Source of the DNA: a virus
DNA: 33,748 nt
IMG/VR virus record: IMGVR_UViG_3300021963_003854
Location: 1-33,748 of that record
Direction: 5' to 3' (one strand)
The notes under the pieces were generated by a model. The model searched no databases. It had not been told where the DNA came from and saw only the letters and a program-made list of their open reading frames with translations. Positions 1 through 33,705 of this stretch are shown here, piece after piece. The first letter of the stretch is position 1, and every line of letters begins with the position of its first letter. Made by a program: the position numbers and the translations under genes.

Positions 1-64
1 GCACGGTGTACGGCTCCGCGAAATTCCCGATTTTTCAAAATTCAATGTTTGCGCGGTTTTTGCG

Positions 65-70
65 TAGACT
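65..70 (+). promoter_or_regulatory. Putative -10 element (TAGACT) for a leaderless transcript of the first gene
   Basis: TAGACT lies 7 nt before the ATG at 78, so transcription would begin at or within a base or two of the start codon. No Shine-Dalgarno sequence precedes this ATG. The same arrangement recurs at four other genes of the window. No good -35 hexamer is seen. Confidence 0.5.
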
Positions 71-77
71 GGTTTGC

Positions 78-551
78 ATGACTGAACTGCGCATTGAAAC
101 TGTAAACATAAACAGCTTGACCCCTGACCCGGCTAATGCACGAAAGCATGACGGCAAAAACTTGCAGGCAATAGCTCACTCACTAGAAAAGTTTGGGCAA
201 CGTAAACCAATTTGCGTAACGCCTGACTCAATCGTTGTTGCTGGCAACGGCACAGTAGAAGCTGCAAAGTCTTTAGGTTGGACTGAGATTGTGATTGCTC
301 GCACTCCTGTCGGTTGGTCGTGGGAACAGATACGCGCCTTTGCACTTGCTGACAATCGCACAGCAGAACTTGCTGAATGGGATGACAAGGTTCTTGCTGA
401 TCAGTTGCTTGAGTTAGATGCAAACGGTTGGGAACTTGAGCAGTTAGGTTTTGAGTCATTGCAACCACCATTAGGTGATCAGAGCGATGAACCGTTAAAA
501 TTCAAAGAGGATAAAGTTTGTCCAACTTGCGGTTCTTCAATTAAGGAATAA
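78..551 (+). CDS. ParB/sulfiredoxin-like nuclease domain protein
   Basis: A 157-aa protein with the ParB N-terminal domain pattern: an 'N-x-L-x-P-D-P-A-N-A-R' opening, a helix ending in 'SLEKFGQRKPI', then 'VVAGNGT.EAAK.LGW' and 'ALADNRTAELAEWD'. In phages this domain commonly lies beside terminase or methyltransferase genes and has been linked to DNA binding or nicking. The last 15 residues contain one CPTC pair, possibly half of a metal site. The frame is open from position 6, but ATG 78 is preferred because it begins the conserved domain and sits 7 nt after a -10-like hexamer; upstream codons give basic, non-domain sequence. The TerS gene starts 2 nt after the stop, so a packaging-linked role is plausible. 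Family clear, function inferred. Confidence 0.8.
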   Translation: MTELRIETVNINSLTPDPANARKHDGKNLQAIAHSLEKFGQRKPICVTPDSIVVAGNGTVEAAKSLGWTEIVIARTPVGWSWEQIRAFALADNRTAELAEWDDKVLADQLLELDANGWELEQLGFESLQPPLGDQSDEPLKFKEDKVCPTCGSSIKE

Positions 552-553
552 CT

Positions 554-1003
554 ATGGCTCCGCGTGGCAGACCACCAAAACCGATTGAACAGAAAAGACT
601 TACTGGCAACCCCGGCAAACGAACATTGCCAGATCAGAAAGAACTTGTGTTGTTGCCTTCTGCTTACGACATTCCAGAACCTAACCGCCCACTAGGTAGT
701 GCAGGCACAGAACTTTGGGAACGCATCTGGGGTATGGGTCAAACTTGGTTAAGTCCATTGACTGACATTGAGATTCTGCTTATGACTTGCGAGCTACTGG
801 ATGAACGCCGTAACTTGCGCATTCAGGTTTTGCAAAACAACAGACCAGACGAAAGAAAAGCCCTGCGCGATCTAGACCGTCAGTTAGTTGCTAACTTGTC
901 GCTGTTAGGTTTTACACCAACTGACCGTTCAAGACTGGGCGTAGCTGAAGTTAAACGCGCATCTAAGTTAGAAGAACTGAAGGCTCGTGCCAGCCAAAAT
1001 TGA
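554..1003 (+). CDS. terS: Terminase small subunit, P27 family
   Basis: A 149-aa protein whose N-terminus (RGRPPKP followed by LTGNPGKR) is the hallmark of the P27-type small terminase subunit of HK97-like phages. The small subunit recognises packaging sites on concatemeric DNA and loads the large subunit. The rest is predicted helical, with 'GTELWERIW' and 'LLDERRNLR' as usual in the family, and the length is normal. The large subunit gene starts at 987 inside its 3' end (17-nt overlap), consistent with translational coupling. The position right after the putative cos end fits a cos-packaging phage. Confidence 0.9.
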   Translation: MAPRGRPPKPIEQKRLTGNPGKRTLPDQKELVLLPSAYDIPEPNRPLGSAGTELWERIWGMGQTWLSPLTDIEILLMTCELLDERRNLRIQVLQNNRPDERKALRDLDRQLVANLSLLGFTPTDRSRLGVAEVKRASKLEELKARASQN

Positions 1004-2501
1004 ATCTTGGCCACCAACTTGGCTTACACCTGTGAACAAAGCTGCGCTTAATAAATCGCGTGGCTTACAAGTATCTGACTTCATAGATACCTTTGCTATT
1101 CAGACTAAAGAAACAGTTGCTGGTTATGCAGGTGACAAAATGCAACTGCGCGCTTGGCAACACGAATTGTTTAGGCATTTGTTTGCTGTTGGAACTGATG
1201 GCAAGTTTAGACACCGCACCGCGCTTATTGGTATGGCTCGCAAGAACGGCAAGAGCGCACTAGGTTCTGGCATTGGTTTGTGGTCGCTGATTATGGGGCC
1301 TGCTGGTGGTGAAGTTTATTCCTGTGCAGCTGATAAAGAGCAGGCTCGCATTGTCTTTGGTGATGCTAAGAAAATGATTCAGGCTGAACCAGAACTAGAA
1401 GAACTGTGCAACGTCTATCGGGATGCAATCGAAGTACCAGCAACGGGTTCTGTGTATCGCGTTCTTTCAAGTGAGTCGTTTACTAAAGAAGGCTTATCGC
1501 CAACAATGGTTATCTTTGACGAACTTCACGCAGCACCAAACCGCGAACTCTTTGACGTAATGCAACTTGGTATGGGTGCAAGACGTGAGCCAATGCTTAT
1601 TGGTGTTACTACTGCCGGGGTCAAGGCTGATTCATCCGGTCAAGACTCAATCGCATACAGCCTGTATCAGTACGGCAAGCGCGTAGCTCAAAAAGAAATA
1701 GACGATCCAACATTCTTTATGGCTTGGTGGGAAGCGCAGGCAGAAGCAGACCACCATTTAGAACAGACTTGGAAAGATGCCAACCCTGCCTTTGGTGATC
1801 TGAACGACCCTAAAGATTTTGAAGCAATGGTTAAGCGAACACCAGAAGCAGAGTTTAGAACCAAGCGATGCAACCAATGGGTAAGCAGTCAGACCGCATG
1901 GCTACCTAACGGTGCATGGGAACAGCTAGAAGTTAAGCGTGAGATTGGCGCAGATGTGCCAGTTGTCTTGGGCTTTGACGGTTCGTTTAGTGGTGATGCT
2001 TCTGTAATCATTGGCGTAACGGTAGAAGAACAGCCCTATGTCTTTATGGTCAAGGCTTGGGAAAAACAGCCTGAAGATGATTATGAATGGCGCGTAGACA
2101 TTCTTGAAGTTGAGAATACGATCATTGAATTCTGTGGCACACATAACGTAAAAGAAATTGCGTGTGACCCGTTTCGTTGGCAACGCACAATGCAAGTCTT
2201 AGATGAAGCAGGATTCCCGATTGTCGAATGGCCTTCCACTTCACCTGCTCGTATGGTTCCAGCCTGTGCCAAATTCTATGATGCAGTGGTATCTAACAAG
2301 CTAACCCATGACGGCAACCCATTACTTACGAGACACCTATCAAACGCTGTGGTTAAGACTGACAGACTTGGCCCAAGAATCGTGAAGGAACACAGAGGTT
2401 CACCGCGAAAGATAGATGCTGCCGTTGCTAGTATCATAGGATTTGATAGGGCAACTGTTTCAAGAGAAGAACCCGTTGTGCCACAGTTCTTTAGCTTCTA
2501 G
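987..2501 (+). CDS. terL: Terminase large subunit (packaging ATPase/nuclease)
   Basis: A 504-aa protein of usual TerL length. The ATPase half shows Walker A 'ARKNGKSA' (residues 84-91) and Walker B with the catalytic Glu in 'VIFDELH' (D178, E179). The RNase H-like nuclease half begins near residue 325 with 'GFDGSFSGDAS', whose Asp (about 331) is the expected metal ligand; 'ACDPFRW' further on is another typical acidic motif. It pumps DNA into the prohead through the portal and cuts concatemers. Start is GTG 987, overlapping terS. The HK97-like Terminase_1 group fits the neighbouring P27 small subunit and HK97-like portal. Confidence 0.95.
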   Translation: MPAKIESWPPTWLTPVNKAALNKSRGLQVSDFIDTFAIQTKETVAGYAGDKMQLRAWQHELFRHLFAVGTDGKFRHRTALIGMARKNGKSALGSGIGLWSLIMGPAGGEVYSCAADKEQARIVFGDAKKMIQAEPELEELCNVYRDAIEVPATGSVYRVLSSESFTKEGLSPTMVIFDELHAAPNRELFDVMQLGMGARREPMLIGVTTAGVKADSSGQDSIAYSLYQYGKRVAQKEIDDPTFFMAWWEAQAEADHHLEQTWKDANPAFGDLNDPKDFEAMVKRTPEAEFRTKRCNQWVSSQTAWLPNGAWEQLEVKREIGADVPVVLGFDGSFSGDASVIIGVTVEEQPYVFMVKAWEKQPEDDYEWRVDILEVENTIIEFCGTHNVKEIACDPFRWQRTMQVLDEAGFPIVEWPSTSPARMVPACAKFYDAVVSNKLTHDGNPLLTRHLSNAVVKTDRLGPRIVKEHRGSPRKIDAAVASIIGFDRATVSREEPVVPQFFSF

Positions 2502-5398: not shown

Positions 5399-5674
5399 AT
5401 GCCACTATCAACAGCGCAGTTCACACTAACTGCAAACACACCGCGCCAGATAGTCCCACCTGATCGCATGAACCAACACGTTTGCATTCACAATCACGAA
5501 CATTCGCAAAACAGCGAGATTTACATCGGCAATTCTCACGTTACAACAACCACAGGAATCCACGCAGTTGCAACGCAAACTTCAATGATTACGATTGGCC
5601 CCGGCGATGATCTTTGGGCTGTATCCGATACCAATGGAGTAGAGATTCAAGTGCTAGTAGTTAAGCAGGACTAA
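5399..5674 (+). CDS. Small putative virion (decoration-like) protein
   Basis: A 91-aa protein predicted to be all beta: alternating polar/hydrophobic segments, 'CIHNHEHSQNSEIYIG' in the middle and 'ISIGPGDDLWAVSD'-like strands near the end (as translated: 'ITIGPGDDLWAVSD'). It is preceded by an AAGGAT site and followed by the protease gene with a TAATG overlap. The pattern resembles small proteins in structural operons that sit on capsids, but I cannot place it in a named family. Confidence 0.55.
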   Translation: MPLSTAQFTLTANTPRQIVPPDRMNQHVCIHNHEHSQNSEIYIGNSHVTTTTGIHAVATQTSMITIGPGDDLWAVSDTNGVEIQVLVVKQD

Positions 5675-6612
5675 TGCCGTATTTCATAACAGACACCGCA
5701 GAGGGTTGCTCAGGCTGGGCAACTATTAAAGACGATGGCGAAGTTATTGGTTGCCACACGACAAAGCAAGATGCCATAGATCAGATGGTTGCTGTGTCAA
5801 TAGCTGAGGACATGGAGCCGGGTGGGGAACGTACCGCTAATGATTTACAAAATGAGAAATGGCGTTCAATCGCGCTAAACTTAAACAAGGATGAAAGGCA
5901 GTCAATGACCACCAATGTAGAACGCCGAGTTAATACCGTTGAGTTTGATGTTCGTAATGGGGAAGCATCTAGCGATGGCATGAGTTTCACTGGCTATGCA
6001 GCCGTGTTCAATAGCCCGTCAGAGCCACTACCGTTCACTGAGGTTATTCGTGAGGGTGCATTCAAGCGTTCCTTGAAGTCACGCAATGAGATCAAGCTAT
6101 TTATGAACCACAACACAGACGTTGTTCTAGGTTCTACACGCGCTGGAACTCTTAAACTAACTGAGGATTCACGCGGTCTACTTGCTCAGGCTGAACTGCC
6201 AGACACAAGCGCAGGGCGCGACCTATCGGTTCTTATGAAGCGTGGCGATGTATCGAGCATGTCATTTGGATTTAGCGTTCCACCAAAGGGTGATGCTTGG
6301 TCAAGCGATGGCGCAACTCGTGAACTGCATCAGGTTCGTTTGCATGAAGTTTCTATCGTTACTGGATTCCCAGCCTATGAAGCAACAACTGCATCTGTTC
6401 GTTCCTTGGACATTTTGGCACAGCGCACTGCTGTTGATGTAGATGCTCTTAGCGATGCGATCCTAAAGCTAGAAGCCGGGGAAACTCTAGATGCTAACCA
6501 CGCTGATTTGATTAGCGAAGTAGTGCAGAAGTTACGCGCTGACCAGCCAAGCGAAGTAGACATGCTAGAGATCAAGCGCAAACAACTTGACCTAATGCTA
6601 AAAGCGTTCTAA
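5674..6612 (+). CDS. HK97-like prohead/capsid maturation protease with extra N-terminal domain
   Basis: A 312-aa protein. Residues 1-55 form a small domain with 'CSGWATIKDDGEVIGCH' and 'DAIDQMVA.SIAE', which I recall from other actinophage proteases. Residues 88-240 are the peptidase U35 core: 'SFTGYAAVFN', 'IREGAFKRSL', catalytic His146 in 'MNHN', the nucleophile Ser in 'SSMSFGF' (194-200) and 'LHEVSIVTGFPAYE'. It cleaves scaffold and capsid delta domains during maturation. An internal ATG at 5905 has its own AAAGG site, so a shorter form lacking the first domain is possible. The usual downstream partner, the major capsid gene, follows after a terminator. Confidence 0.9.
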   Translation: MPYFITDTAEGCSGWATIKDDGEVIGCHTTKQDAIDQMVAVSIAEDMEPGGERTANDLQNEKWRSIALNLNKDERQSMTTNVERRVNTVEFDVRNGEASSDGMSFTGYAAVFNSPSEPLPFTEVIREGAFKRSLKSRNEIKLFMNHNTDVVLGSTRAGTLKLTEDSRGLLAQAELPDTSAGRDLSVLMKRGDVSSMSFGFSVPPKGDAWSSDGATRELHQVRLHEVSIVTGFPAYEATTASVRSLDILAQRTAVDVDALSDAILKLEAGETLDANHADLISEVVQKLRADQPSEVDMLEIKRKQLDLMLKAF

Positions 6613-6773: not shown

Positions 6774-7967
6774 ATGTCTGACTACATCCGTCAGCAAGCG
6801 GAAGCTCGTGCAAAGGCTTGGGAAGAAGCAAAGGCTCTTCTCGACTCAGCAGCAGCTGAAAAGCGCGATCTAACCGCAGAAGAAAACCAAACCTATGACC
6901 GCATCATGGCTGACCTTGATTCACGTTCACAGGTAATGGAAACAATGAAAGCCCAAGCAGAGCGTGAAGAACGTGCTGCAGAAGCAATGAAGGGCTTTGA
7001 AGCCCAAGTAAAGCCAGCCGTTGCATCTGTTCCAGAAATCAACGAAGCTGACCTAATCCGTTCCCTTGCTCGTGGTGAGATTCGTTCCCACTCGTTCGAG
7101 AAGCGCGATGTAACAAAGGGTTCAACTGGCGCACCAGTACCGACCTCTTTCTACGATCAGGTAATCATGCTTGCTCGTCACGTTGGCCCAATGCTAGAAA
7201 CATCCACCATTCTTAATACTGCTGGTGGGGAAAACTTGCAGATCCCGTCACTAAGTGCGTACAGCACTGGCACTGTTTCTTCAGAAGCTGCTGCTATTGG
7301 TGAAAGCGATCCAACATTCAACGCATTCAAGACCCTTGGTGCATACAAGTATTCATTCCTAACCCAGATCAGCCGTGAAATGGTTGAAGATGCAGGCGTG
7401 GACATTCTTGGATTCCTTGCACAGCAAACAGGTAACGCACTTGGCTACGCAGTCAATGGCGCACTAACAACTGGAACAGGAACAGTTCAGCCAACAGGCA
7501 TCGTAACTGCTGCTGGTTCAGGCATCACTGGTGGAACTGGCGTAACAGGCGCATTCACTGCTGACAACCTAATTGACTTGGTTTACAGCGTTGATACCGC
7601 AGGTCGCACCCTACCGGGTACAGGATGGCAGATGAACGCACAGTCAATCGCTGCTGTTCGTAAGCTAAAGGATTCAGCCGGACAGTACCTGTTCAGCCCA
7701 TCCCTATCTGCTGATGCTCGTGATCTATTGCTTGGATATCCTATTTTCGAGAATCCAGCAATGGCAGCTCCAGCAACAAGCGCGAAGTCAGTAATCTTTG
7801 GTCACTTGCCAAGTTACTTTGCTCGCACCGTTGGTGGATTACGCCTAGATCGTTCGGATGACTATGCCTTCCAAAACGATTTAATTACGTTCAGAGCGAC
7901 CCTTCGGGTTGACGGCAACCTCATCCAGACTTCACATGTGAAGTACTTTGCAGGTGCAGCTTCCTAA
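6774..7967 (+). CDS. Major capsid protein, HK97 fold
   Basis: A 397-aa protein. Residues 1-85 are a charged coiled coil rich in Ala/Glu/Lys, the delta/scaffold domain that the upstream protease should remove. The remainder matches HK97-type capsid proteins: 'GAPVPTSFYDQVI', 'GPMLETSTILNT', 'ESDPTFNAFKTLGAYKYSF', 'QISREMVEDAGVDI', 'RTLPGTGWQMN', 'LLGYPIFENPAM', then 'VFGHLPSYFARTVGGLRLDRSDDYAFQND'-type C-terminal strands (split here: 'IFGHLPSYFARTVGG' and 'LDRSDDYAF'). It has a strong AGGAG ribosome site and is flanked by terminators on both sides, so it is probably transcribed as its own strong unit. Confidence 0.95.
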   Translation: MSDYIRQQAEARAKAWEEAKALLDSAAAEKRDLTAEENQTYDRIMADLDSRSQVMETMKAQAEREERAAEAMKGFEAQVKPAVASVPEINEADLIRSLARGEIRSHSFEKRDVTKGSTGAPVPTSFYDQVIMLARHVGPMLETSTILNTAGGENLQIPSLSAYSTGTVSSEAAAIGESDPTFNAFKTLGAYKYSFLTQISREMVEDAGVDILGFLAQQTGNALGYAVNGALTTGTGTVQPTGIVTAAGSGITGGTGVTGAFTADNLIDLVYSVDTAGRTLPGTGWQMNAQSIAAVRKLKDSAGQYLFSPSLSADARDLLLGYPIFENPAMAAPATSAKSVIFGHLPSYFARTVGGLRLDRSDDYAFQNDLITFRATLRVDGNLIQTSHVKYFAGAAS

Positions 7968-7987
7968 TAAGGAAACCCCAAAACGTG

Positions 7988-8032
7988 GAACCCCACCGAG
8001 AGCGCAGGCTTGGTGGGGTTCTGCTTTTATTT
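7988..8032 (+). terminator. Strong Rho-independent terminator after the capsid gene
   Basis: A perfect 10-bp stem GAACCCCACC (7988-7997) with GGTGGGGTTC (8012-8021), 14-nt loop, followed by TGCTTTTATTT. It is the cleanest terminator of the window and separates capsid from the sugar cassette. Confidence 0.92.
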
Positions 8033-8082
8033 GACCATGTTTTAATGTAAGGTTCAAAGCACCTGCGAATAAAGGAACTCCT

Positions 8083-9258
8083 GTGTCAAAGCAATTAGCA
8101 ATCGGTTGGAATAGCAATGCACCTTGGGCTGCAACTGGTTATGGAACTCAAACAGCACAAGTAACTCAGCGACTAAAAGAACTGGGTCACAATGTAGCGA
8201 TCTTTAATAACTACGGTCTAGAGGGAAGCAACACAGACTGGAACGGAATGCCCGTTTATCAACGTGGCGCAGACCTCTACTCAAATGACGTAGTACCTGC
8301 TCACATGCACGATTGGACTTCACGCCACCCTAAACAGGGTCACATTCTTTTTACTCTTTATGACGTATGGGTATTTAAAGGCCCTAGATGGGCTGACTGG
8401 AATGTTGCTAGTTGGGTTCCCATTGACCACATCCCTGCACCGCCAGAAGTAACCAAGTGGTTGCGACAAGATTTTGTAACTCCTATTGCTATGAGCCAGT
8501 ACGGGCAAACAATGATTGAGAACGTAGGCATTGAATCCCTTTATGTGCCACACGGCATCGAGTCAGTCTTTAAGCCAATGAAACGCCATAAGGGAACTAC
8601 CGGCAGAGATTACATTGGAGTTGGCGAGGACAAGTTTGTTGTCGGTATGAACGCAGCCAACAAAGGCGTAAGCCCTAACCGCAAAGCATTTGGTGAGAAC
8701 ATCTTGGCGTTCTCTATGTTTGCTCAGATGCACGATGACGTAGTTCTTTATCTGCACACAGATCAGATGGGCGCACTAGGTGGAATCAAACTGATGCAGT
8801 TGCTTCAATCCTGTGGAGTGCCAGAGGACAAGTTTAAGTTCGTTGATCCTTACGTTTACCGCACCGGGATTGACCAGCAGACTCTAGCCACGATCTATAC
8901 GGCGATGGATGTTCTGCTTGCCACTTCATACGGCGAGGGCTTTGGTATTCCTACTGTCGAAGCGCAAGCCTGTGGCACACCTGTAATCATTAGCGACTTT
9001 GCAGCTTCAACGGAGCTACTAGGTGACGGCTGGCTAATTGACGGCCAACCGCTTTGGGATGCACCGCAATCTAGTTGGTTCCACATGCCTAGCGTTCCTG
9101 CAATCGTGGATGCCCTAGAGCAGGCGTATCAGCGTGGTCGTGGCAGATCAGAAAAGGCACAAGAGTTTGCCAAGGCGTATAACGCCGATACCGTGTTTGA
9201 GGAGCATTGGAAGCCTGCACTAAAGGTGCTGGAAGCCAAAGCCCTAGAACGGATGTAG
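8083..9258 (+). CDS. Glycosyltransferase, GT-B fold, family 4-like
   Basis: A 391-aa protein starting at GTG 8083 behind AAAGGA. N-terminal half: 'GWNSNAPWAATGYGTQTA...RLKELGHNV', the typical GT-B opening with a Gly-rich acceptor-side loop. C-terminal half: 'VGMNAANKG', then 'MDVLLATSYGEGFGIPTVEAQACGTPVI', containing the E-x7-E motif that binds the nucleotide-sugar donor in GT4-type retaining enzymes. It probably transfers a sugar to a phage or host surface acceptor in the cytoplasm. First of four sugar genes spaced by -4 to +3 nt, downstream of a strong terminator, so a separate promoter between 8021 and 8070 is expected. Confidence 0.85.
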   Translation: MSKQLAIGWNSNAPWAATGYGTQTAQVTQRLKELGHNVAIFNNYGLEGSNTDWNGMPVYQRGADLYSNDVVPAHMHDWTSRHPKQGHILFTLYDVWVFKGPRWADWNVASWVPIDHIPAPPEVTKWLRQDFVTPIAMSQYGQTMIENVGIESLYVPHGIESVFKPMKRHKGTTGRDYIGVGEDKFVVGMNAANKGVSPNRKAFGENILAFSMFAQMHDDVVLYLHTDQMGALGGIKLMQLLQSCGVPEDKFKFVDPYVYRTGIDQQTLATIYTAMDVLLATSYGEGFGIPTVEAQACGTPVIISDFAASTELLGDGWLIDGQPLWDAPQSSWFHMPSVPAIVDALEQAYQRGRGRSEKAQEFAKAYNADTVFEEHWKPALKVLEAKALERM

Positions 9259-9261
9259 AGC

Positions 9262-10065
9262 GTGAAAATCGGCTGGTACACACATCACACCGAGAATACG
9301 CAGAGCGTTCTTGTGCGTTCGCCTGTGAGCCAGCAAGGGCTATTCACGGGGCAGTTCGCAGGTGGGGCTGAAATGTCAGACTACGAATACCGCTTGCAAG
9401 CACCTCTAGACTACGAGATTGAGATTGTCACCCCATACACATTCGATACACACGACATACACCAATTCGATTCAGTCATAGTTACGGGTACAGATGCGTT
9501 CACAGATGCGCAGTTATACAGACTGGCTGAGTATGACCCGTTCGTATTTGTGCATCACTTACAAACTCCACGCGCAGGGCTTAATGCTTTGATTCGTGGC
9601 TCTCGCTTATTCGTAACCCATACCCCGGCGCACATGCGCAGAGAATTGGCTTGGAGTAAGCCACGCAAGACTGCGCAGGTTCTAAGTTATTTCGACACGA
9701 GCAAGTGTCACGATCACATGGACAAACAACCTTACGCATTGTGGGCTGCTAGGAATCACCCCTTAAAAGGTCAGCTACGCGCTCACGCTTGGGCAGCTCA
9801 GGCAGGCTACGAGTTCAAAGCTCTTACAGATGTACCGCGTGAACAAGTGCTAGATGCAATGGCAAGGGTGGAATGGTTTGTGCATTTGCCGTTAGCCTTT
9901 GAGTCAGAATGTCGCGCAGTAATGGAAGCGGTGCTTTCAGGTTGCAGGATTCACACGAACGAGAACGTAGGAATTACTAGCGTTGAAGATTGGCACGATG
10001 CAGATGCATTGCGCCACATGGTAGATAAGGCAGGCGATACATTTTGGAAACTGGTGCAGCAATGA
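9262..10065 (+). CDS. Putative glycosyltransferase (GT-B-like, divergent)
   Basis: A 267-aa protein starting at GTG 9262, 3 nt after the previous stop. The start 'MKIGWYTHHTENT' followed by 'GGAEMSDYEYRLQAP' resembles the N-terminal Rossmann half of GT-B enzymes; 'FDSVIVTGTDAF' and 'FVTHTPAHMRREL' continue it. The C-terminal part, 'VEWFVHLPLAFESECRAVMEA' and 'VLSGCRIHTNENVG', is the degenerate donor-binding half, where E...E spacing is retained. It is shorter than usual (about 350 residues). Next gene overlaps by ATGA. Confidence 0.65.
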   Translation: MKIGWYTHHTENTQSVLVRSPVSQQGLFTGQFAGGAEMSDYEYRLQAPLDYEIEIVTPYTFDTHDIHQFDSVIVTGTDAFTDAQLYRLAEYDPFVFVHHLQTPRAGLNALIRGSRLFVTHTPAHMRRELAWSKPRKTAQVLSYFDTSKCHDHMDKQPYALWAARNHPLKGQLRAHAWAAQAGYEFKALTDVPREQVLDAMARVEWFVHLPLAFESECRAVMEAVLSGCRIHTNENVGITSVEDWHDADALRHMVDKAGDTFWKLVQQ

Positions 10066-10736
10066 GAATGCTTACAATCATTCCGACAAGAGGGCGCAAC
10101 GATAACGCCATTAGATTATTTGAAGCCATTAACGCAACGGCAGACTTTACAGAAGTGGTCTTTGCCATAGATGCAGATGATGTTAAAACCTACAATGGCT
10201 TGATGGCAGAAACTGCTGGACTAGATAACGTCAAGGTCTGCATTGCCAACCGTATGGGAATGAACGGCACTCTTAATCATTGGGCTTTATGGTTCTCACC
10301 TGACTATGACTACATCTGTTTTATGGGTGATGACCACCTACCGCGCACAGGTGGTTGGGACACGAAACTTGCAGAAGCTATTGGCACAGAGCCGGGCATT
10401 GCTTACGGAAACGATTTACTGCAAGGCGAGAATTTGCCAACTGCCGTAGTAATGTCTAGCAAGATCATTAGGGCTACTGGCTTTATGTCACCGCCAGCCT
10501 TAAAGCACTTGTTCCTAGATAACTACTGGCTTGCAATGGGTCACGCTTTAGAGAATGTGAACTATTTGCCAGATGTAGTAATTGAACACATGCACTACAC
10601 AAACGGCAAGGCAGCCCATGACGATAGATACGCAGCCGTAAATAACCCTGAAATGCACAACGGCGATCAGGCTATCTTTGCTGAATACCTAGCCACAGAA
10701 TTTAGTAATGACGTTGAGAACGTAAAGGCTTGGTAA
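10062..10736 (+). CDS. Putative glycosyltransferase, GT-A fold (family 2-like)
   Basis: A 224-aa protein. 'MLTIIPTRGRNDNAIRLFEAI' is the classic GT-A nucleotide-binding opening, followed by 'VVFAIDADD', 'NHWALWF' and 'YDYICFMGDDHLPRTGGWDTKL', where GDDH takes the place of the DxD metal/donor motif. Later 'ATGFMSPPALKHLFLDNYW' fits the acceptor part. ATG 10062 is chosen because it overlaps the upstream stop as ATGA and begins the beta strand. Acceptor and sugar are not known. Confidence 0.72.
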   Translation: MRMLTIIPTRGRNDNAIRLFEAINATADFTEVVFAIDADDVKTYNGLMAETAGLDNVKVCIANRMGMNGTLNHWALWFSPDYDYICFMGDDHLPRTGGWDTKLAEAIGTEPGIAYGNDLLQGENLPTAVVMSSKIIRATGFMSPPALKHLFLDNYWLAMGHALENVNYLPDVVIEHMHYTNGKAAHDDRYAAVNNPEMHNGDQAIFAEYLATEFSNDVENVKAW

Positions 10737-11596
10737 TGAAGATACTGATTACAGGTCACAAAGGATTCGTTGGCCGTAACTTTGTAAAGGCTTTGCCAGA
10801 TAGTGAGATTACAGGCATTGACTTAAAAGACGGCAACGATTGCAGGGACTTCTTTAAGACCAACACAGATCAGTTCGATCTAGTGATTCACCTAGCAGCC
10901 ATCGTTGGTGGTCGCGCAACTATCGAGGGTGAGCCACTATCGGTAGCAACTGACCTGTCAATAGATGCTGAGTTCTTTAATTGGGTGCAGAAAACAAAAC
11001 CCATAAATACGGTTTACTTTTCTAGCTCGGCTGCTTACCCAATAGACCTGCAAACTGGACACCATAGAAACCGACTAGCAGAGCATGACCTAAACCTAGA
11101 TGCGGTTAGGAATCCTGACCTGACTTATGGCTGGGCAAAACTTACTGGGGAATACTTGGCGCAATTTGTAAGTGATTCCAAGGTGTTCGTCTTTAGACCG
11201 TTCTCAGGTTATGGATCAGATCAAGATGCTGATTATCCGTTTCCTAGTTTTATTGACCGCGCTCTAGCCAAGGCAGACCCGTTTGACATTTGGGGCGATG
11301 GCGAGCAGGTGCGTGACTTCATCCACATTGAGGACATAGTTCAGGCTGTTCTCTGGCACGTTCAGACTGGGTACACAGGCACGTTCAATCTATGCTCAGG
11401 CTTTGCCACTAGCTTTAATGACCTAGCAGAAATGGTCTGCGAGGAAGCAGGCTACAAGCCCGTGTTTAATCACATACGTTCAGCACCTACTGGGGTTATG
11501 TATCGCGTTGGTGATTCGCATTTATCGCACCAGTATTTCATTCCGCAGATTACTTTGCGTGAGGGAATTCGTAGGGCATTGGCAGAACGCAAGTAG
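10736..11596 (+). CDS. NAD(P)-dependent sugar-nucleotide epimerase/dehydratase (extended SDR)
   Basis: A 286-aa protein with the Rossmann motif G-x2-G-x2-G at the N-terminus (TGHKGFVG, G7/G10/G13), 'VIHLAAIVGG', 'VYFSSSAAYP' with the catalytic Ser, and Y131-x3-K135 in 'LTYGWAKLTGE'; 'VFRPFSGYG', 'IWGDGEQVRDFIHIEDIV' and 'GTFNLCSG' complete the pattern. It resembles GDP-L-fucose synthase/UDP-glucose 4-epimerase-type enzymes and probably makes the donor used by the three transferases upstream. Start ATG 10736 overlaps the preceding TAA. Confidence 0.85.
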   Translation: MKILITGHKGFVGRNFVKALPDSEITGIDLKDGNDCRDFFKTNTDQFDLVIHLAAIVGGRATIEGEPLSVATDLSIDAEFFNWVQKTKPINTVYFSSSAAYPIDLQTGHHRNRLAEHDLNLDAVRNPDLTYGWAKLTGEYLAQFVSDSKVFVFRPFSGYGSDQDADYPFPSFIDRALAKADPFDIWGDGEQVRDFIHIEDIVQAVLWHVQTGYTGTFNLCSGFATSFNDLAEMVCEEAGYKPVFNHIRSAPTGVMYRVGDSHLSHQYFIPQITLREGIRRALAERK

Positions 11597-27262: not shown

Positions 27263-27601
27263 ATGCTTAAAGATTGCGACCATGAAGCATGGCTAGATTC
27301 AGGGATGTGCCTGATTTGCTCTGCGCCTGAATCATGGATGTATCTAGCAGAATGCTCAAAGGGTGACCCTGACGTTTGCTTTCCACCTGATGAAGAACCG
27401 CACCTGTACGCCATAGCCAAAAGAGTCTGCGAGGAATGCCCGGTATCAGGGTTCTGCCTAGAGATTGGCCTAGATGAGAAATGGGGCATGTGGGGCGGAT
27501 TGGATCCAATCGAGCGTTACAAATTAGCCAAGTCTCCTAAACTGCCAAAGGATCGGCTTGAAAGACGGCGGTTTTTACGGGTTTACGCCTACACAAATTA
27601 G
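27263..27601 (+). CDS. WhiB-like Fe-S transcription regulator with N-terminal zinc-knuckle extension
   Basis: A 112-aa protein. The WhiB core has four cysteines (C31, C56, C59, C65: 'LAECSKGDP' and 'VCEECPVSGFCL') that hold a [4Fe-4S] cluster, then 'GMWGGLDPIER', the turn that touches sigma-A, and a basic tail 'RLERRRF'. WhiB proteins are found only in actinobacteria and their phages. Before the core is C5-x-H7-x8-C16-x2-C19, an unusual addition resembling the free mini zinc proteins of this phage. It may redirect host RNA polymerase. A 130-nt intergenic region follows. Confidence 0.9.
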   Translation: MLKDCDHEAWLDSGMCLICSAPESWMYLAECSKGDPDVCFPPDEEPHLYAIAKRVCEECPVSGFCLEIGLDEKWGMWGGLDPIERYKLAKSPKLPKDRLERRRFLRVYAYTN

Positions 27602-29254: not shown

Positions 29255-29658
29255 TTAGTTACTTTGTAGAGGGTGAGCCAGCACCACAAGGCTCTAAGAA
29301 TGGCTTTGTTAAGAATGGTCGCATGGTCATGGTTGAGTCAAGTAAAAAGGTTAAGCCTTGGCGCGAAGCCGTAACTATCAAGACAGCGCAGCACATGAGT
29401 TGGGAAACACTAAACCCAATGACTACCCCGGTAGAGATTGCGTTGGTCTTTCACTTGCCTAGACCTAAGACCGTAAATCGTAAGTGGCCAAGCGTGAAGC
29501 CTGATCTAGATAAGTTGATTCGCTCAACCTTTGACGGACTTACAACAGGTGGACTCTACACAGACGATGCCTTAGTAATAGCTGTGAGCGCATCTAAGCA
29601 ATACGCCACAGACAGAATTGGTTGCCAAATTATTGCAAGCGAGGTGCAAGATGTTTAA
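29251..29658 (+). CDS. rusA: RusA-family Holliday junction resolvase
   Basis: A 135-aa protein beginning at GTG 29251 (an in-frame TTG at 29239 lies inside the prior gene). RusA motifs: 'VEGEPAPQGSKNGF' (start strand), 'HLPRPKT', then 'KPDLDKLIRSTFDGLTTGGL' with catalytic acids and 'YTDDALVIAVSASKQYA'. It cuts four-way junctions left by recombination or replication before packaging. Length is normal for the family. It overlaps the second WhiB gene by 8 nt. Confidence 0.9.
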   Translation: MISYFVEGEPAPQGSKNGFVKNGRMVMVESSKKVKPWREAVTIKTAQHMSWETLNPMTTPVEIALVFHLPRPKTVNRKWPSVKPDLDKLIRSTFDGLTTGGLYTDDALVIAVSASKQYATDRIGCQIIASEVQDV

Positions 29659-29983
29659 CACAGACGGCGCAGCCTGCATTGGGTTAGACCCAGAGCTATT
29701 CTTTCCAACCAATAACATCAGTCCCAAGATTGAGGACTTACTTAAAAAGACTTGCCTACGGTGTCCAATCTTTGATGCTTGCCTTGACTATTCGTTAAAG
29801 GTAAAGGTCGAGGGTTGGTGGGCAGGAACGTCAGATAAAGACCGTGTAGAACTACGCAGGTTCTTTCACATAACACCAATACGAATGGATGAGGAATACA
29901 AGCATCACTTCCAGCAAGAAACAAATCAAGCAAAGAATTCGCGCACATACCGTGAGCGATTAAGAGAAGCAGGAGCAATGTAA
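29651..29983 (+). CDS. Second WhiB-like Fe-S protein
   Basis: A 110-aa protein. Cysteines follow the WhiB pattern: one in 'AACIGLDPELFFP', then C36-L-R-C39-P-I-F-D-A-C45 ('TCLRCPIFDACL'), then 'EGWWAGTSDKDRVELRRFF' as the turn that usually reads GVWGG. The C-terminal half is charged (QAKNSRTYRERLREAGAM). ATG 29651 is chosen because it starts the domain; the open frame reaches back into rusA. It differs strongly from the WhiB protein at 27263, so the two were probably acquired separately. Confidence 0.88.
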   Translation: MFNTDGAACIGLDPELFFPTNNISPKIEDLLKKTCLRCPIFDACLDYSLKVKVEGWWAGTSDKDRVELRRFFHITPIRMDEEYKHHFQQETNQAKNSRTYRERLREAGAM

Positions 29984-31312: not shown

Positions 31313-31609
31313 ATGAACTGGACAGATACTGTTGGCGTGACGATTCACAATGACCTAGTGCGGTCAGCGTTAAAAAACAAGCCAGAAGCAGACATTGACA
31401 AGCTAGAAGCCAGCATTAAGCGCATGAGCCTAAGCGTAGGCATTACACGCATGGCAATAGCATCAGTCTTAGATGCAGAGATAGAAGCAATGGCTGCCTA
31501 TCGCGTACTGGGTGATTCATCTATCACTAATGAATACCTAGCAGGGATGCAATCAGCAGCTGACTTAGTTAGATACGGCGTACACCTAACGGATGGAATA
31601 AAACTATGA
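31313..31609 (+). CDS. Helical protein of unknown function
   Basis: A 98-aa protein with long helices ('ADIDKLEASIKRMSLSVGIT', 'VLDAEIEAMAAYRVL') and no cysteines. It starts directly after a leaderless-type promoter and overlaps the methyltransferase by ATGA, so the two may be co-expressed. No family recognised. Confidence 0.6.
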   Translation: MNWTDTVGVTIHNDLVRSALKNKPEADIDKLEASIKRMSLSVGITRMAIASVLDAEIEAMAAYRVLGDSSITNEYLAGMQSAADLVRYGVHLTDGIKL

Positions 31610-32850
31610 ACTACGACCTGCGCAATGGTGACTGTGTTGAGATTATGCGTAGCCTGCCAGCAAACAGCGTGGACTCGATTGTTACTGACCCACCGTATGA
31701 GCTTGGCTTTATGGGTAAGTCTTGGGATTCAACTGGTATTGCATACAGCGTAAAGATGTGGGATGAAGCACTTAGAGTCTTAAAGCCCGGCGGTCACTTG
31801 CTTGCCTTTAGTGGATCACGCACTTATCACCGTATGGCTTGCGCCATTGAAGATGCAGGCTTTGAGATACGCGATCAGATTATGTGGGTCTACGGTTCAG
31901 GGTTTCCAAAGTCAATGGATGTAAGCAAGGCAATAGACAAGCAAAGCAATGTTCATGTCGAAGTTATTGCAACTGGTAAAAGTGGCAAAACGGCTATTTG
32001 GAATGAACAAGGCGGTATGGGTAATTTCAACATAACTGCACCGACAACAGACAAAGCAAAGCAATGGGCAGGATGGGGAACAGCACTAAAGCCTGCACAT
32101 GAACCAATAGTCCTAGCTCGTAAGCCCTTGATAGGAACAGTTGCAACTAACGTAATCATTCATGGCACTGGCGCATTGAACATTGACGGGTCAAGGGTTG
32201 GGACTGAAATTCTTGTAAATCAACCGGGTGGCATTCCTAATGGAGCTAATCATTTTGTCAATTCATCGAAAGAATTAAATCGTGATAGACCAGCAATAAC
32301 TGTGCAAGGTCGTTGGCCTGCAAACTTTATACATGATGGTTCAGATGAAGTAGTTGAGTTGTTTCCTGAAACAAAGCCAAGCAAGGCAAATCCTAGAAAC
32401 AATAGTGACTTTAAGTCAGTATCTAAGGGTAAAGAAACAGCGCACACAACACTTGGTCACAACGATAACGGCGGTTCAGCAGCACGATTCTTTTACTGCG
32501 CGAAGGCGAGTAAGAAAGACCGCAATGAAGGACTAGATGGCTTTGCAGAGAAACGCCCTGATGAAAGAAGTGAAACTGGCATGGGTACTTTTACAGAAAA
32601 GGGAGTTGCTAAACAATCAAACCATCACCCAACCGTTAAGCCAATTGATCTAATGCGTTACCTAGTTAAGTTAGTAACACCACCTAACGGAACAGTCTTA
32701 GATCCATTTATGGGTTCAGGCTCAACAGGCAAGGCGGCAGTCTTAGAACACTTTAGTTTTATTGGCATAGACCAAAGCGCAGACTACCTAGAGATTGCAA
32801 CGGCTAGAATCAAACACGCGCAAGAACAGATAGAAGGCCGGTTGTTATGA
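31606..32850 (+). CDS. DNA methyltransferase, DPPY type (N6-adenine/N4-cytosine)
   Basis: A 414-aa protein. Motif IV D28-P-P-Y31 ('VTDPPYELGFMGKSWD') is N-terminal and the AdoMet motif 'LDPFMGSGSTGKAA' starts near residue 365, so this is a beta-type order; DPPY favours adenine-N6 methylation. A long middle region includes 'GRWPANFIHDGSDEVVELFP' and 'ARFFYCAKASKKDRNEGL', common in phage and mobile-element methylases. It is an orphan like the one at 24514 but clearly a different family member. Likely protects against host restriction. Confidence 0.92.
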   Translation: MNYDLRNGDCVEIMRSLPANSVDSIVTDPPYELGFMGKSWDSTGIAYSVKMWDEALRVLKPGGHLLAFSGSRTYHRMACAIEDAGFEIRDQIMWVYGSGFPKSMDVSKAIDKQSNVHVEVIATGKSGKTAIWNEQGGMGNFNITAPTTDKAKQWAGWGTALKPAHEPIVLARKPLIGTVATNVIIHGTGALNIDGSRVGTEILVNQPGGIPNGANHFVNSSKELNRDRPAITVQGRWPANFIHDGSDEVVELFPETKPSKANPRNNSDFKSVSKGKETAHTTLGHNDNGGSAARFFYCAKASKKDRNEGLDGFAEKRPDERSETGMGTFTEKGVAKQSNHHPTVKPIDLMRYLVKLVTPPNGTVLDPFMGSGSTGKAAVLEHFSFIGIDQSADYLEIATARIKHAQEQIEGRLL

Positions 32851-33413
32851 CAACGATCATCACTACAACAGGCAACAACTTCTGCACACTTACAGCAGAT
32901 CAAGGGATTACATCAGACCTAATACATCCCGACATGCCTAAGATCGTTCAACAAGATACTTGGCTTATCGGTGTAGCCGGGAGCGCAAGAGTCTGCGATC
33001 AGTTGCAGTATTCGATTGAATACCCTAAGCCACCAGTTGAAGTGGTTAAGTCTGGTGAATGGTTACGTTGGTTGGTTACTAAGGTGATTCCACTCATAGA
33101 TGACATGATCAAAGATAGTGAAATGGATGCAGAAGCCTTACTGATCACACACGGCAAAGCATTCCTAGTAAGCGAGAACCTAAGTGTGCTAACGGCTAAC
33201 CCTTACTGGGCTATCGGATCAGGGGCAGACCTAGCACTTGGGTCATTAGCTGATAGGCAATACGCACCAGACTGGCACAAGAACCACGACCTATCTGCGC
33301 TACGAGCTATGGAGTCTGCAAGTATGCACGATCCAAATACTAGGGGGGGCATAGATCAGTTTCGTTCGTATGCCACAGGAAAAGTAATCGCTAGAGCCAA
33401 TGGCATTCAATAA
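32847..33413 (+). CDS. Proteasome beta/HslV-like Ntn hydrolase
   Basis: A 188-aa protein overlapping the methyltransferase stop (ATGA). After removal of Met1 the N-terminus is Thr-Thr ('TTIITTTGNNF'), Asp is at position 17 ('TADQG') and Lys at 31 ('DMPKIV'), and 'TWLIGVAGSARVCDQL' follows, the order and near-spacing of Thr1/Asp17/Lys33 in HslV and proteasome beta subunits. 'YWAIGSGADLALGSL' matches the later conserved Gly-Ser-Gly loop. No partner ATPase is seen. It may be a self-assembling protease acting on host or phage proteins; the substrate is unknown. Confidence 0.78.
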   Translation: MTTIITTTGNNFCTLTADQGITSDLIHPDMPKIVQQDTWLIGVAGSARVCDQLQYSIEYPKPPVEVVKSGEWLRWLVTKVIPLIDDMIKDSEMDAEALLITHGKAFLVSENLSVLTANPYWAIGSGADLALGSLADRQYAPDWHKNHDLSALRAMESASMHDPNTRGGIDQFRSYATGKVIARANGIQ

Positions 33414-33705
33414 GCCCTGCCTAAGATGCAAGGCACTACATAGAAACCAATCCATTTGCAACGATTGCCAACGTTTAGCAGATGCTGACAGGAACGCCAA
33501 TAGACCTCATTACAAAGGAAGTTACGCAAAGCAGGCCAAGCTAGTACGGGATACCGCCACTATCTGCTGGCTTTGTGGACAAGGGCGCAGGGTAGATGAT
33601 CCTTTTACTGCTGACCACTACTACCCCGGCGAACCAGCAAGCCCACTCATAGCAGCGCACAGATCCTGCAACAGTCGCAGAGGAAATAACCCCCCTACGT
33701 CATAA
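33400..33705 (+). CDS. HNH endonuclease adjacent to the putative cos end
   Basis: A 101-aa protein overlapping the previous gene by 14 nt. N-terminal C7-x2-C10 and C20-x2-C23 form an extra zinc pair set; the HNH core reads 'CWLCGQG', 'FTADHYYPGEPASPLIAAH' and 'RSCNSRRG'. HNH proteins next to terminase genes help cos cleavage in many Gram-positive phages; here TerS/TerL lie at the opposite end of the window and would adjoin in a circular map. The stop codon lies in the loop of a G/C hairpin. Confidence 0.88.
   Translation: MAFNKPCLRCKALHRNQSICNDCQRLADADRNANRPHYKGSYAKQAKLVRDTATICWLCGQGRRVDDPFTADHYYPGEPASPLIAAHRSCNSRRGNNPPTS

Follow-up and report, generated by a model that had tools for sequence, protein, structure and literature searches.

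A predicted proteasome-like N-terminal threonine peptidase of an actinophage branch

Group I of the proteasome homologs, as described by Fuchs, Alva and Lupas in 2021, comprises HslV, BPH, AAH, CPH, PPH, RPC and DPH (PMC8665760). Phages are among the carriers of AAH and PPH, but the authors found none specific to Actinobacteria that had AAH, and no AAA+ partner was identified for the new homologs, including by co-occurrence (PMC8665760). The cellular role of most group I proteins is not known, and phage copies are perhaps the easiest place to find one. A proteasome-like family in phages is already known, and its actinophage branch is thinly described. In the papers searched, the literature on the function of phage HslV-like proteins consists of annotation only, and no activity is shown for any phage member.

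The stretch of DNA analysed here in full, referred to as the window, is 33,748 nucleotides long and represents an IMG/VR virus contig of the HK97 siphophage type, with genes for terminase, portal, head maturation protease, capsid and tape measure (Table 1). WhiB is a marker of actinophages (PMC6802176), and two WhiB-like genes are found within this one small phage. An actinobacterial host, assumed in an earlier note on this DNA, is supported by both genes and by terminase large subunit (TerL) and capsid sequences nearest to those of an actinophage; the window probably stems from a phage of a freshwater actinobacterium. The nearest named phage is Pontimonas phage phiPsal1 (MG835450; TerL 56%, capsid 44.5%), which displays a similar architecture; no Ntn protease is listed for it and tblastn found none. 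Positions 8083-11596 of the window, in the structural region, accommodate a glycosyltransferase-like run and an NAD-dependent epimerase-like gene, both named from sequence, and at a comparable position phiPsal1 likewise has glycosyltransferases. The host of the window phage could be acI or Luna-type Microbacteriaceae.

Table 1. Features of the window considered in the text, with the evidence for each
Feature	Position	Strand	Evidence
ParB-like, terminase small and terminase large genes	6..2501	+	synteny
Head maturation protease, HK97 type	5674..6612	+	PHROG 80 E=6.9e-67
WhiB-like regulator	27263..27601	+	PHROG 472 E=9.3e-17
Second WhiB-like regulator	29618..29983	+	PHROG 472 E=3.1e-13
98-aa all-helical protein	31313..31609	+	AF2, synteny
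N6/N4 DNA methyltransferase	31606..32850	+	PF01555 E=1.3e-34, PHROG 67
Predicted proteasome-like Ntn (Thr) peptidase, 188 aa	32847..33413	+	ATG start; PHROG, Pfam, profile, alignment, AF2
HNH endonuclease-like protein, overlaps protease 3' end	33400..33705	+	PHROG 338 E=6.1e-6, synteny

The protease reading frame lies exactly where the earlier note had placed it, and its product, which begins MTTIITTTGNNFCTLTADQGITSD, matches PHROG 1040 ('peptidase HslV family') along almost all of its length with E=5.7e-20. The same profile also matches the homologs of Planktophila, Arthrobacter and lake actinophages; it is broad, with further matches in E. coli and archaeal genomes, and membership therefore denotes the superfamily and not the function. 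With the Pfam Proteasome model the window protease remains sub-threshold, at 19.0 bits against a cut-off of 22.4, which is passed by a 54%-identical relative (22.6 bits) and clearly passed by a cultured-phage homolog (25.5 bits). A profile made from nine divergent members retrieved from the PDB HslV (1.7e-8), archaeal 20S beta (5.8e-7) and, at nearly full length, BPH (2.2e-8). Scans of viral contigs yielded 39 loci and further, more divergent ones, and a pattern scan detected no close homologs in bacterial genomes. The family evolves under purifying selection, with a median pairwise dN/dS of 0.11 and a maximum of 0.24 across 317 usable pairs. A chance match was rejected on the strength of the PHROG 1040 E-value, the fold matches described below and the dN/dS values.

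An AlphaFold2 (AF2) model of the protease, computed from 21 sequences, reached a pLDDT of 87 and a pTM of 0.85. The order of strands and helices is that of a proteasome subunit, with both H1 and H2 present (helices at 47-56 and 72-88); the model stops after the last strand and the C-terminal S12/H5 element is absent from it. In Foldseek searches against the PDB, 20S beta subunits and BPH were matched at a probability of 1.0, the TM-scores of ∼0.6-0.7 and rmsd of about 5-7 A indicating a match of fold class and not a close one. Lack of an alpha-beta-beta-alpha sandwich had been named in the earlier note as counting against its proposal; the model is of the alpha-beta-beta-alpha type and matches proteasome beta subunits. 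The best match among viral models is UniProt A0A6J5RF45, and further matches are partly labelled HslV or proteasome. The central proposal of that note, a proteasome- or HslV-like Ntn protease carried by a phage, is thus borne out by PHROG 1040, the PDB profile matches and the fold.

The predicted catalytic set is complete and conserved. Thr1, Asp17 and Lys31, numbered after removal of the methionine and singled out in the earlier note, are indeed present and are invariant among relatives. When actinobacterial PrcB and E. coli HslV, the latter sequence checked against PDB 1e94, are included in the alignment, Lys31 coincides with Lys33 of HslV and PrcB. In the same numbering Gly44 is the oxyanion-loop glycine, and Ser124, Asp161 and Thr164 are also listed. 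A set of nine sequences reaching down to 22% identity shows no variation at Thr1, Asp17, Lys31, Gly44, the GxG loop or Asp161/Thr164. The same positions, and with them the whole initial Met-Thr-Thr-Ile, are constant in these nine and in 28 close relatives. In each of the 32 homologs whose 5' end is intact the start codon stands directly before the threonine, and an upstream in-frame start is present in none of them, which argues that there is no propeptide and that removal of the methionine would free Thr1. Methionine aminopeptidase prefers small second residues.

Set beside the computed family, fold class, catalytic set, purifying selection and absence of a phage-encoded ATPase, the reading of the protein as an active N-terminal-threonine peptidase of group I, self-assembling and ATP-independent, appears reasonably likely. 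Host methionine aminopeptidase would remove the methionine and expose Thr1; identical subunits may then come together as a closed ring or double ring, by analogy with BPH and HslV, and the particle would cut small or unfolded polypeptides during infection without a dedicated ATPase. Many phage proteases act on one target, which speaks for another possibility: the same active site might carry out a narrow reaction, a peptide ligation or a specific single cleavage that inactivates, for instance, one host defence or regulatory protein. Connectase, which combines the same fold with another chemistry, counts against the peptidase reading and is an example of such a change in the proteasome superfamily (PMC8665760). 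A narrow reaction of this kind is nonetheless unlikely, as the window protease has no insertion of the connectase type between strands 3 and 4 and the genome suggests no target.

In a maximum-likelihood tree, the window family and the Planktophila phage homolog form a group at 86/89. Together with further homologs from phages and a clade of AAH type (99/99), the window family stands apart from HslV and PrcB (100/97); the order inside the AAH and phage group is not resolved, and two rows are long-branched. The label AAH rests on taxonomy and sequence as judged here and not on the set of PMC8665760. An identity as HslV proper was rejected, since no NCBIfam HslV model matched and the tree branch is separate; the sole NCBIfam match is a weak one to archaeal beta, 17.4 versus 224 bits. 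A 20S beta subunit (PrcB) was likewise rejected, given the separate clade and the lack of a propeptide. A profile of the window family revealed AAH-like proteins in 25 of 297 Actinomycetia genomes, all of at least 4.9 Mb. Among plasmids searched for homologs there was one match only, an AAH-like gene of Rhizobium etli (plasmid pRetNXC12d, 4741-5549). It is preceded by an 87-aa ORF with a four-base overlap, a phage-like layout in which the small protein looks unrelated.

The phage encodes no ATPase partner, as the earlier note had maintained: AAA (PF00004) and AAA_2 (PF07724) are absent from the window and from 17 related phage records, some of which are fragments, and all controls were positive. 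The putative host type was surveyed in eight freshwater acI genomes, only some of them complete, which include LanE-43, the host of the cultured phages E7 and F5. They were reached via a 16S rRNA motif, whose matches comprised LanE-43, other actinobacterial records and one record labelled Omnitrophota, the last being left out. These eight genomes contain no PF00227 protein, no HslU over the cut-off and no Mpa/ARC OB domain. ClpX-like and ClpB/C-like ATPases are found in acI genomes, with AAA_2 proteins in all eight, and make a host partner possible. The protease could accordingly work with a host ring ATPase of the ClpX, ClpC or ClpB type that lends the unfolding power of the host to a phage-made chamber, in the manner of HslV and the 20S proteasome, which use ATPases. 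We regard this as rather unlikely, for HslU, the sole known partner of HslV, does not exceed the cut-off in the acI genomes, the Mpa/ARC OB domain is missing there, and the survey of Fuchs et al. records no AAA+ protein co-occurring with the new homologs (PMC8665760).

The same genomes bear on the suggestion of the earlier note that the protein might mimic or interfere with host proteolysis. The proteasome is present in 51 of 60 sampled genomes of the same class (Actinomycetia), which speaks for a protein that imitates the host 20S proteasome or HslV or serves as a decoy of either. The window protease, however, groups with the AAH type and not with PrcB or HslV, and the eight acI genomes yielded no proteasome, no HslV, no HslU over the cut-off and no Mpa/ARC, which for a host of the acI kind makes mimicry unlikely. 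With acI genomes standing in for that of the actual host, this result only lowers the standing of the mimicry idea, which on the combined evidence is very improbable.

Related contigs that are opened at another point show the gene order SSB ... 98-aa - protease - HNH - ParB-like - TerS - TerL on one strand, and the HNH gene followed by ParB-like and terminase genes places the protease just upstream of the packaging genes. The 98-aa gene on one side and the HNH gene, next to the terminase, on the other are its conserved neighbours. The earlier note had pointed to methyltransferase genes as the company in which to look for relatives; this turned out to be no family trait, because apart from the window only four of about 38 relatives carry a methyltransferase that separates the 98-aa gene from the protease. 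In the window the methyltransferase stop overlaps the protease start (ATGA). The optional insert is positioned exactly between the two genes, with the ATGA overlap kept on the protease side.

In 24 relatives the 98-aa gene runs up to or into the protease start, mostly with an ATGA overlap, and in nine it is absent from that place. The protease is also found in all 25 evaluable viral contigs with the 98-aa gene, a 26th match ending at the contig end. Every contig of the TerS lineage with enough upstream sequence carries the protease anyway, and the linkage of the two genes therefore derives partly from shared ancestry. The predicted 98-aa protein is all-helical (AF2, pLDDT 89.6), and it matched nothing in named phages and no fold in the PDB. 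It may be a partner of the protease in many of these phages; since its gene is missing from some relatives, it cannot be strictly required. A more speculative, and doubtful, proposal is a phage-specific two-gene module in which the chamber peptidase and the small helical partner, serving as adaptor, activator or gate in place of an ATPase, would be brought into proteasome-less cells and act on packaging or host regulatory proteins.

Homologs occur in Arthrobacter phages Pitbull and Hum25, where they are annotated 'protease', in Microbacterium phage Pumpernickel and lake phage DSL-LC01, and in the cultured 'Ca. Planktophila' phages LanE43-AprE7 and F5 (OX376640/OX376641; PMC10202952). The latter two are sequenced phages of the proteasome-less acI strain LanE-43, so that the use of a proteasome-like protease by a phage becomes testable in a phage-host pair. 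In E7 (OX376640) the homolog, at 7500-8036, comes directly after the portal gene, a frequent place of a head maturation protease, and no other head protease was found among the ten proteins scanned. The Pitbull homolog is located near HNH and terminase genes at the joined genome ends. These positions, together with that of the window gene directly upstream of HNH-ParB-like-TerS-TerL, would suit a role in head assembly or packaging, in which the protease trims a structural or terminase-associated protein. Such a role has a low probability: the window phage and Pitbull encode head maturation proteases of their own, and the homologs of Pumpernickel, DSL-LC01, Tunturi_5 and Vibrio phages are surrounded by other kinds of genes, for example nucleotide-metabolism or tRNA genes. 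With a separate HK97-type enzyme in the window, the Ntn protease is not needed for head maturation here and was rejected as the principal enzyme of that step in this phage.

The preferred reading, a self-assembling and ATP-independent peptidase, can be set against the described members of group I, whose traits the window protease shares: a compact subunit, no propeptide and no C-terminal S12/H5 (compare PMC8665760). AAH has this same compact organization without propeptide or C-terminal H5; the AAH-type rows, however, begin with Thr-Cys and constitute a clade of their own (99/99) that excludes the window protein, which is thus not assigned to AAH. PPH is likewise phage-encoded and of group I, and was rejected as an identity: it has ∼140 residues and lacks helix H2 (PMC8665760), whereas the window protease has 188 residues and possesses both H1 and H2. 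The likeness to HslV (ClpQ) resides in the Thr-Asp-Lys active site, the direct Met-Thr start and a similar size, the difference being the separate branch and HslU, found neither in the phages nor, over the cut-off, in the tested acI genomes. BPH (PDB 5ovs/5ovu), which works without a known unfoldase (PMC8665760), resembles the window protease by profile (2.2e-8) and by fold (TM 0.66/0.67 with 5ovs_K); with about 15% identity in the fold alignment, this likeness is one of subunit fold. The closest match among viral models, A0A6J5RF45 of an uncultured Caudovirales phage (46% identity, TM 0.91/0.88), belongs to the same narrow family and is already deposited, listed merely as an uncharacterized protein. 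Since homologs are now apparent in several actinophages, the actinophage branch, which purifying selection maintains in many environmental phages, extends a known family modestly, and on sequence comparison the window protease is a member of this branch, beside AAH, BPH and HslV.
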